Shown here piece after piece: positions 1-2,854 of a DNA stretch of 39,581 nt. The notes under the pieces are model-generated. The model was not told the DNA's origin, made no database searches, and worked only from the letters and a program-made list of their open reading frames with translations. The stretch comes from an uncultured Alphaproteobacteria bacterium (GTDB lineage Bacteria; Pseudomonadota; Alphaproteobacteria; CAAHEQ01; UBA3637). Where the stretch lies: the NCBI GenBank assembly GCA_949286245.1, contig CASECF010000081.1, positions 1 through 39,581 of the forward strand. The letters are read 5' to 3'. Position 1 is the stretch's first letter; each line of letters begins with the position of its first letter. Made by a program: the position numbers and the translations under genes.

Positions 1-2614
1 AACTACCGGAAGAATTTTGAACAACCCAACGTTCTCCTTCCGCACAACAGACTCTCGGCAACAATCCTTCCGGACTAACTCTATCTTGAGGACAACATTC
101 TCCCCCCGTAGCATTTTCACCATCAGAAACATCTGAGGAGATCCACACACTGCCGGTAGGACAACAAGACTTTGTACTTGCATTATAGTCACTGGCACTA
201 CAGCACCGACCATCCGCCTCTGCAAATCGTTCATCCTCAGCGCAACATTCATAAGGGAAAACCGTATTATTCAATCGCTCTTCCGTACAACATAATCCGA
301 CATCCTCTTCATCCGAATCTGTTGTAATCCATTCTTCCCCGTCTTTACAACATCCATCGTCTGAGCTCATGGAAACTCCCTCTTTTACCGGGCAACACAC
401 AAAATCATTCGAATCATCTTTATATTTTTGCGTCACTTTTGTTCCTGCCGGACAACACGTCAGTTTTTCTTCTGCCTCTGTCGGTCTTAAATGATTAACT
501 CGATCGGTTGGACAGCACTCACCCTCAGGACCGTTGGCCTCAGTCGATTTCGGATCCCCGGCAATGAAGATTTCTCCTTGAGCACAGCATTGGATTGTCT
601 CTGCATTAAAATCTTTTTCAGGACAACATTCCGTCTTGGTATCTTCTCCAAATTTTTCATGAGCTCCTTTAGCCGCTTTATATCCCTCCGGACAACACTT
701 AACCTCATTAGGCTTCGGCTCATACGCCACCCCGTTATTTACGGTTATAACATACCGATCCATCGGACAACACAGCTTTGAAGAGGAATGAAAATCCTCT
801 CTCGGACAACACTCACTACTGGTTTCGGCCCAAACACCATCCCAGCAACAGCCTCTTTTACCAAAATCATCTTTATATTGCTGTGATGTTGGGCAACACC
901 GCGTTCCACCGTCCGGATGCGGATACGGAACCTCCAATTCTGCAATGTTTCTATCCCCAAATATAACACAACAAACATTCATCGCTTCGCCCGTCGGACT
1001 GTGATCGGCTGCATTTCCTTTCAAGCAACAATCCTGCCGACCATATCCCGGATACTCGTTAGCCACCATACCTTTTCGACATGCTGTTTTTTCCGTACAG
1101 GTTGTACTGTTTTCCGGTTGTTCATTCCAACAACATCTTTTATATTCGTCAGAATAATGCTGTCCCTCAGGGCAACATTTATCATATAGTTCATCATAAT
1201 GATATCCTTCTGGGCAACCAACAGTTCCAATTCCCCACGGATCCTCACATTTTCCCGTCTGCGAATTATAATCCGCCGGATCACAACATATTCCGTCAGA
1301 AGTCAAAATTTGACCATCCGGACAAGGAGACGCTTGTAAACATTCCCCTGATTGGAAATCATACCACTGGATCGGACAACACCATCCGCCCAACATTAAA
1401 ATCTCGTCATCAGCACATAAATCCGACAAACAGGTTCGCGTGATCGGACTATAGCTATCAATCGGACAACAATCTCCCTGAATCGTCAAAACTTGACCTG
1501 ACGGACAGTCTCGATAAAAACATTCTTGCGTCGCAATATTATAGTAATCCTCAGGGCAACATTCACCGTTACTCATCAAAATCTCACCTGCCGGACACGA
1601 TACATCGGGCTCGGCACATTTATCTTTATTTTCTCCCGCGCAAGAGGAAATGCCTAAAGGACAGCAAATACCACCGCACTCAATCTGATTTCCATTCTCA
1701 CATGTTTTCTCACAATTTTCCAGAGCCGTTGATGTTTCTGTACACTGCCCGTCTTGACATGTTGCACAGGCCGAATTGCAATCCGAATCTTGGGTACATT
1801 GACACCCGATCGGTGCCGGAGACTTTCGTTCACAAATACCGTCTTTATAGATATAGCAGGCCGGACATGACCCGTTCGACGACCCAAAAGCTCCAAACCA
1901 TAACACAAGATCACTGCCCTCTGAAACAGCCATTTCCTCATCTTCAAACGGAGCAACGGAACGGCAAAACTCTTCGGCAATCTCCTTATTGTTTTGCAAA
2001 ACAATCGGGTAATAATTATGACCTTTTGTGTCTTTATAAGCAAAATCATATCCCAAATCCGCCGCAACTATTTTACGGCACACATTATAGGTCGTCCCTT
2101 TGATATGAGCCGTAAAGGCATCCGGCGTTTCAACATCCACAAAAACCTGAGCTCCCATCGGCGTTGTAAACGATTCGCTTCCTTCGTCAAATTGAACCGC
2201 ACTGATAATCTTCCGAATAGGAACACGAACCGCCTCATAAGATCCCCCCGAAACAGTCTTATCCCCAAATTCTTCTAAAATAAAGCCTGTCCTAGCTCCT
2301 GCAACAGCTTTCGCATATTGATCCAACGTCTCATTCTCTCGATACATTAACATCGCTTGATCATATCCCAATAACGCCGTTAATGTCACAACACCAATAA
2401 TGATTAAAACCCCTATGATCTCAACCATCGATTTGCCTGATTCACTTGGTGATATGGAGCTCATTTGGGAGGGCTTTTTGAATTGATTCGGACAGAGCGT
2501 GAGTGTCCGATTTTTTGATGGAAAGATTTTATTTTTGAAATGCCCTTTTTTTAACTTTCGGAACATGCTTAAAAATAGTTGTTTTGTTTTGGAAACCAGA
2601 TTTTTGTAGCCCAT
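1..2614 (-). CDS. Giant cysteine-rich protein with type IV prepilin-like N-terminus (3' end cut by window edge)
   Basis: On the minus strand one frame stays open from the ATG at 2614 to base 1: 871 complete codons and no stop. Residues 60-82 hold a prepilin-type site: G60/K61, then SMVEIIGVLIIIGVV, with the conserved Glu at +5 (E65) and a hydrophobic helix. Residues 83-245 look like a pilin-type globular domain with isolated cysteines. From about residue 249 the protein is extremely Cys-rich (about 77 Cys, 26 of them as Cys-Cys pairs, often CCP). Family knowledge suggests cleavage by a prepilin peptidase and export to a pilus or pseudopilus; the Cys region should be disulfide-bonded outside the cytoplasm. 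The start at 2614 has a GGGGAAA ribosome site and a promoter upstream. An internal ATG at 2464 would give a classical 10-residue leader but lacks a ribosome site. I know no characterised protein with this architecture, so the function is unknown. Confidence 0.85.
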   Translation of the reverse strand, partial: MGYKNLVSKTKQLFLSMFRKLKKGHFKNKIFPSKNRTLTLCPNQFKKPSQMSSISPSESGKSMVEIIGVLIIIGVVTLTALLGYDQAMLMYRENETLDQYAKAVAGARTGFILEEFGDKTVSGGSYEAVRVPIRKIISAVQFDEGSESFTTPMGAQVFVDVETPDAFTAHIKGTTYNVCRKIVAADLGYDFAYKDTKGHNYYPIVLQNNKEIAEEFCRSVAPFEDEEMAVSEGSDLVLWFGAFGSSNGSCPACYIYKDGICERKSPAPIGCQCTQDSDCNSACATCQDGQCTETSTALENCEKTCENGNQIECGGICCPLGISSCAGENKDKCAEPDVSCPAGEILMSNGECCPEDYYNIATQECFYRDCPSGQVLTIQGDCCPIDSYSPITRTCLSDLCADDEILMLGGWCCPIQWYDFQSGECLQASPCPDGQILTSDGICCDPADYNSQTGKCEDPWGIGTVGCPEGYHYDELYDKCCPEGQHYSDEYKRCCWNEQPENSTTCTEKTACRKGMVANEYPGYGRQDCCLKGNAADHSPTGEAMNVCCVIFGDRNIAELEVPYPHPDGGTRCCPTSQQYKDDFGKRGCCWDGVWAETSSECCPREDFHSSSKLCCPMDRYVITVNNGVAYEPKPNEVKCCPEGYKAAKGAHEKFGEDTKTECCPEKDFNAETIQCCAQGEIFIAGDPKSTEANGPEGECCPTDRVNHLRPTEAEEKLTCCPAGTKVTQKYKDDSNDFVCCPVKEGVSMSSDDGCCKDGEEWITTDSDEEDVGLCCTEERLNNTVFPYECCAEDERFAEADGRCCSASDYNASTKSCCPTGSVWISSDVSDGENATGGECCPQDRVSPEGLLPRVCCAEGERWVVQNSSGS
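1240..1597 (-). repeat. Four tandem ~30-residue Cys repeats inside the giant prepilin-like protein
   Basis: Residues 340 to about 458 of the Cys-rich protein are four consecutive copies of a module with the pattern C-P-x-G-x-I-L-x(4)-G-x-C-C-P-x(3)-Y-x(5-8)-C. The copies begin CPAGEIL, CPSGQVL, CADDEIL and CPDGQIL. Each has one vicinal Cys pair plus two single cysteines, which would allow two disulfides per module. Further toward the C-terminus the pattern changes to Cys-Cys pairs alone. Confidence 0.75.
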
Positions 2615-2652
2615 AATAAATTTCCCCAAATGTTTCAAAAAAGATTCTTTTT

Positions 2653-2682
2653 TTTATACACCAGAGAATACTGAAAAATCAA
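2653..2682 (-). promoter_or_regulatory. Putative sigma70 promoter of the Cys-rich prepilin-like gene
   Basis: On the minus strand TTGATT (2682-2677) is followed after 18 bases by TATAAA (2658-2653). Transcription would start near 2646, about 30 bases before the ATG at 2614, which supports that start rather than the internal ATG at 2464. This is motif matching only. Confidence 0.5.
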
Positions 2683-2854
2683 GCCTTTTTAAATAAAAAA
2701 TCAGTTTTTAAAAGGATTGTTTTTTGGGGGGAAAATACTTTATATTTGTATAACTATTTGAGTATCATTGAATTTTTTATAAAAAGTATGTCTATTGTTT
2801 TGGTATTAAGACTCTTTTGATTTTTCAATAAATCATACAAAATAAGAAGGGAAA

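Follow-up and report, generated by a model that had tools for sequence, protein, structure and literature searches.

Pilins are normally small, and the gene at the left end of the window, in which a prepilin-type N terminus leads into a cysteine-rich tail of several hundred residues, raises the question of what such a protein does and whether a pilus could carry it. The window, that is, the whole stretch of DNA analyzed (39,581 bases), is the entire contig C81 of an 84-contig, 1.47 Mb draft genome (MAG; G000) assigned to the Alphaproteobacteria, so the gene is truncated by the contig end and not by the choice of window. The remainder of the genome was covered through searches and a choice of individual stretches. 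The parts of the gene are as follows:

1 to 2614, minus strand: giant Cys-rich prepilin-like gene, with ATG at 2614 and 870 residues up to the contig end, where the frame is still open
2435 to 2614, minus strand: leader, residues 1 to 60 (or a 5′ UTR plus a short leader if the start is Met51)
2420 to 2437, minus strand: prepilin site G60/K61 with Glu at +5 (E65), the Gly and Glu invariant in eight aligned homologues
1850 to 2434, minus strand: pilin-type N-domain, residues 61 to 255, with invariant C179 and C217, defined by homologue comparison
5 to 1867, minus strand: Cys-rich tail, residues 250 to 870, with 26 CC pairs, defined by Cys counts and repeat layout

A prepilin-type N terminus joined to a cysteine-rich tail

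Read leftwards from its ATG, the gene reaches the contig edge without a stop, as the earlier note had pointed out, and every other frame on either strand across it contains at least 26 stops. Comparison with the pilin cassette of a paralogue on contig C63 places 15, 8, and 77 substitutions at codon positions 1, 2, and 3, respectively; this third-position bias, together with the sole open frame, argues that the frame is truly coding. The same substitution pattern points to protein-level constraint on the pilin part, whereas identity in the tail lies at background, indicating that the tail has diverged. The processing site, SPSESG60/K61SMVE65IIGVLIIIGVVTL, combines the Gly at −1, the Glu at +5, and the hydrophobic N-terminal helix (here following E65) that characterize type IV prepilins. 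The start codon is uncertain, with a leader of 60 residues being long and the internal Met51 giving one of 10 residues. A 203-bp block (2448 to 2650) that spans the right repeat of the promoter element discussed below, the start codon, and the leader is identical in the same-genus genome G001, where neighboring DNA is ≈90% identical, and this block could be a functional 5′ region.

The pilin-type N-domain has no match above cut-off in Pfam or NCBIfam. Among eight homologues, the best scores against pilin models are E = 0.054 for N_methyl and 0.18 for PilS, with none for the window sequence itself; the N_methyl and pilin family models perform poorly on motifs that are both short and divergent. 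The domain is 92% identical to that of the C63 paralogue and 32 to 47% identical to the other aligned members, and C179, C217, Gly −1, and Glu +5 are invariant in all eight aligned sequences. An AlphaFold2 model built from a two-sequence alignment is of low confidence (mean pLDDT 36.6).

The mature part of the protein contains 79 Cys, of which 75 fall within the 615 residues from 256 to 870 (12%). The 26 vicinal pairs in the tail are far above the number in 10,000 shuffles (mean 8.1, SD 2.2, maximum 18). Residues 352 to 480 form ≈30-residue repeats with a CCP and a single Cys (CCPxxxY...C...CPxGQILT..G), nearly all Cys beyond residue 480 sit in CC pairs, and residues 529 to 870 are purely of the CC type with one pair per 13 to 25 residues. 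Thus, the prepilin site and the 26 pairs described in the earlier note are both present, and the linkage that it drew between a prepilin N terminus and a very long Cys-Cys tail is confirmed in a genome that also carries the machinery. The disulfide-stapled rod that it proposed is a putative structure for this tail, as both structure models are of low confidence (pLDDT 50.5 for the tail).

Separate database searches of the two parts, as that note had advised, gave no family match for the N-domain, no PDB relative by sequence for either part, and control-sensitive matches for the tail. Pfam searches with pieces of the tail returned Galaxin_repeat (PF24748) at 35.3 bits (cut-off 28) and the CC domain at 45.4 bits (cut-off 20.6). 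For Galaxin_repeat, the reversed tail still scored 33.0 bits, above the cut-off, and one Cys-fixed shuffle 18.4 bits. We rejected galaxin homology on this ground, since a reversed tail that nearly equals the real score indicates that the match reflects CC spacing and not descent. A haem-binding CxxCH pattern is absent from the tail, which also lacks a match to any metal-site family. Searches of phage, plasmid, and viral collections and of PHROGs found no relative, and a search with the tail for the rest of the 3′ end of the gene, in its own genome and 41 other family genomes, found no match.

A single type IVb pilus machine

Contig C19 (L066) carries an R64/TCP-like type IVb locus, in which genes for a TcpQ/PilL-like protein (TcpQ, E = 4.5e-18), a secretin (1.1e-9), PilO (PF06864, 1.2e-32), an ATPase of 977 residues (T2SSE, 1e-68), and a PilR-like platform protein (T2SSF, 2.5e-26) stand in a row; the components by which we recognize a type IVb operon (PilL/TcpQ, secretin, PilO, ATPase, and platform protein) thus occur together. 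Of 40 family genomes, 35 carry PilO PF06864, which is absent from all 14 control genomes. This is the only type IVb locus in G000, which has a single prepilin peptidase (Peptidase_A24 with a GAGD motif) on C79 and a DsbA-like thioredoxin (Thioredoxin_4) on C47; a search of G000 for DsbB gave no match. The peptidase, pilus ATPase, and disulfide enzyme that the earlier note had proposed to look for therefore all have candidates in the genome.

A large prepilin family with homogenized pilin parts

The window protein is not unique. A second giant on contig C63 extends for 929 codons from a TTG and ends in a stop; the two genes share 830 nt of DNA at 87.7% identity beginning at the prepilin site, and their proteins are ≈92% identical over the first ≈240 to 270 mature residues, beyond which identity drops to background in the Cys-rich tail. 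Shufflon-like inverting C-terminal cassettes are not apparent 3′ of the stop of the C63 paralogue, and the 3′ side of the window gene lies beyond the contig end. In total, G000 yields 32 prepilin-like matches (≈30 genes), which fall into a small class of ≈120 to 135 residues, two Cys-rich classes of ≈440 and ≈620 residues, and the two giants of more than 800 residues. In the ≈620-residue class, the first 250 residues are constant (≈95%) and the Cys-rich remainder is divergent (≈40 to 60%), so that on sequence this class shares the plan of the giants, a constant pilin part followed by a divergent Cys-rich rest. The N-domain is present in 16 of 142 related genomes, often with Cys-rich tails, and all 16 belong to one taxonomic family; the longest frames among these relatives reach 1628 codons. 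This paralogue family, along with the gene conversion and invertible promoter element described below, was overlooked in the earlier note.

Contigs C81, C63, C73, C5, C61, C54, and others in G000 end in or just past prepilin genes or promoter elements, which suggests that this repeat family interrupts the assembly and that its members are probably more numerous than counted. Downstream of a relative's prepilin gene and a TAT-signal protein gene, L068:8234-8686 encodes a 151-residue secreted-looking protein with many CC pairs. The regions 3′ of the C63 and L068 genes were compared for a common protein, and no convincing relation emerged (E = 0.054).

The window and C63 loci both occur in G001 (a same-genus MAG), each cut by a contig end within the shared part. 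The leader and the DNA upstream of it are orthologous when the two genomes are compared (for the window locus, 90.5% identity over 6.1 kb). In the ≈120 nt at the start of the shared part, paralogues within a genome match at 115 of 123 and 120 of 122 positions versus 103 of 122 and 111 of 122 for orthologues between genomes, and the adjacent leader has the reverse pattern, with orthologues more alike than paralogues. The cleavage-site residues follow the genome, being SGK in both G000 copies and SGR in both G001 copies. A pilin cassette that is paralogue-like within genomes, while promoter and leader stay orthologous, points to homogenization between paralogues within each genome by gene conversion, from the prepilin site on.

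A promoter element found in both orientations

The 82 bp preceding the window gene recur in the genome, with 45 DNA matches to the region, mostly just 5′ of prepilin genes. In the window, the element comprises the following features:

2639 to 2720, minus strand: promoter element pointing towards the gene, with TTGATT (2682 to 2677), an 18-nt spacer, and TATAAA (2658 to 2653)
2710 to 2726, minus strand: decayed left inverted repeat CAAAAAACAATCCTTTT (intact copies CAAAAAAAGGATCCTTTTTTT), from the element alignment
2632 to 2655, minus strand: decayed right inverted repeat AAAAAAAGAATCTTTTTTGAAAC, from the element alignment

In intact copies, inverted repeats like (GTTTC)AAAAAAA[G/C]GATC[C/G]TTTTTTT enclose CTTGATTTT-18-TATAAA; across 22 aligned elements, the −35 and −10 boxes are conserved and the spacer is variable. 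These promoter-like motifs between the repeats are of consensus type only and are absent from the list of a stricter promoter scan. The element points towards the gene at three sites in G000 (the window, C82, and the first C74 gene) and away from it at 15, most of the away-facing (OFF) copies keeping near-perfect palindromic repeats; eight prepilin sites have no detected element.

One locus differs in orientation between the two genomes. The element at L105 in G001 points towards the gene; in G000 it points away both at C20, the positional orthologue, and at C73, whose leader is the most similar. The upstream flanks of C20 and L105 are 95% identical over 501 bp, and a single 79-bp inversion raises the alignment score of L105 against C73 from 177 to 232 and restores near-identity. 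Because this clean inversion ends at the GATC cores of the repeats, the segment has evidently been inverted there at some time. The two orientations of a single locus are thus seen between G000 and G001, with a replaced cassette, and not within one population, and at L105 the promoter and leader have also been replaced by a C73-like copy. Orientation agrees at seven of the eight loci comparable between the two MAGs, so that any promoter switching may be infrequent, biased, or a thing of the past. The window element points towards its gene in both genomes and its repeats are decayed in both, and this copy is for that reason probably held on. A recombinase motif scan, which covered only the fetched stretches and is a weak test, found none.

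Two further arrangements were noted near prepilin genes. At L080 (G000:C41), 5′ of a prepilin gene with its cleavage site at 561, a right half-repeat abuts inverted tail-like coding sequence resembling the region that codes for the Cys-rich tail in the ≈620-residue class, and reflects either a larger inversion or a misassembly. At L055 (G038:C1), the DNA 5′ of the 1628-codon prepilin frame contains a perfect inverted repeat of 29 bp, TAAACGTACGTTTTTTGCAACGATTTTTT, with arms ≈100 bp apart, and a promoter-like TTGCAA-17-TATACA straddles the right repeat. Of the inverted repeats sought 5′ of other family members this is the clear one, but the −10 falls beyond the two arms, which leaves promoter inversion doubtful at this locus.

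Discussion

Our favored explanation, which we hold to be somewhat better than even, is that the window protein is a large minor or tip prepilin belonging to the single type IVb machine of this genome, and that its gene is one of a set of gene-converted paralogues that mostly lie behind an invertible promoter segment. After cleavage at G60/K61 by the prepilin peptidase encoded on C79, the hydrophobic helix would insert, together with the pilin domain, into the pilus or the pilus base. Disulfides formed in the periplasm would fold the Cys-rich tail, which would be exposed on the outside as a module for adhesion or contact. Gene conversion would keep the pilin part alike as tails diverge, and the ≈80-bp promoter segment between inverted repeats, inverted in some copies, would presumably be off when facing away and on when facing the gene, with switching being reversible.

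Several other explanations bear on the protein itself. That the gene is an assembly or frameshift artefact is barely credible: it does stop at the contig end, like many family members, but 6.1 kb of upstream DNA and the leader are collinear with an independent MAG, the C63 paralogue is intact to its stop, and the substitutions are biased to third positions. A more substantial alternative, which we nonetheless consider unlikely, is that the prepilin-type N terminus serves only as an inner-membrane anchor or export tag, and that the protein never joins a pilus and is instead envelope-attached or released through the secretin, with the tail alone acting as an envelope fiber or matrix protein. Tails of this size would be difficult to fit along the shaft of a pilus, the prepilin-like proteins far outnumber the needs of one pilus, and pilin models miss the N-domain, all of which suit an anchor; however, nearly all family genomes retain the type IVb assembly locus, and mere anchoring requires neither the Gly −1 nor the Glu +5 that are invariant in the aligned homologues. 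As for the tail, galaxins are built of tandem ≈30-residue di-Cys repeats with ≈12 to 13% Cys (PMC2726143), and the two above-threshold Pfam matches would fit a matrix protein with a structural rather than an adhesive role, whose CC-repeat scaffold shares ancestry with the galaxins of animals; the behavior of the reversed and shuffled tails and the lack of a PDB relative for the tail make this improbable. Beyond its 75 cysteines, nothing favors the metal-binding or electron-carrying filament raised in the earlier note, since the tail has neither CxxCH nor a metal-site family match, and CC pairing, spacing that diverges between paralogues, and the DsbA-like protein all suit disulfides better; we regard such a filament as very improbable.

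The promoter orientations could alternatively be fixed relics of an element that moved or inverted long ago and does not switch in living cells, a possibility of real weight that still falls well short of even. The concordance of seven of eight loci between two species-level genomes, the decay of the window repeats in both, and the negative recombinase scan are all as expected for relics, but most OFF copies retain near-perfect palindromes, and at one locus the two genomes are separated by a clean inversion with its ends at the repeat cores. Returning to the favored explanation, its extension to the whole family, slightly less than an even proposition in our view, is that one type IVb machine displays an exchangeable repertoire of ≈30 prepilins, many of them large and disulfide-rich, from which many invertible promoters spread over the genome select and in which gene conversion keeps the pilin part compatible, giving antigenic or adhesive variation.

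These findings describe a bacterial family with genomes of ≈1 to 1.8 Mb that carries numerous genes joining a pilin domain to a long Cys-rich tail. The arrangement of these genes suggests that the bacterium may switch which surface fibers it shows. Should these promoter segments prove to flip in living cells, the system would amount to promoter-inversion phase variation of a repertoire of type IV pilins, and gene conversion would keep the assembly part compatible across the switched set. It is also a possible route to learning how uncultured small-genome bacteria attach to, or vary before, their partners.

Comparison with known systems

DNA inversion is known to change which pilin is expressed in Moraxella, where Piv inverts coding sequence at one locus; pilin-linked inversion is common to both systems, but here many loci and promoter inversion are involved. 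The Cys-rich tails recall galaxin and CC-domain repeats in their di-cysteine units and ≈12% Cys, yet galaxins have a Sec signal peptide in place of a prepilin N terminus, and homology does not survive the reversed-sequence control. The minor pilin PilV of the R64/IncI thin pilus acquires C-terminal variation by DNA inversion in a shufflon (for this system, see PMC9045228 and PMC5430464). The present system resembles R64 in its type of machine (PilL/TcpQ, PilN secretin, PilO, PilQ, and PilR), in joining a constant prepilin-type N-terminal part to a variable C-terminal display part, and in creating variation through DNA inversion. It differs in that separate full-length genes are scattered over the chromosome, that the promoter is inverted rather than C-terminal coding cassettes, and that the tails are Cys-rich and far longer. 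In invertons such as those of Bacteroides capsule loci, a promoter between inverted repeats points towards or away from a gene (PMC10939037), and invertible promoters are also the subject of a further paper (PMC8748976). The element described here likewise consists of a promoter between inverted repeats found in both orientations but, unlike the Bacteroides invertons, is a candidate for control of type IV prepilin genes in Alphaproteobacteria and inverts a segment of only ≈79 bp.
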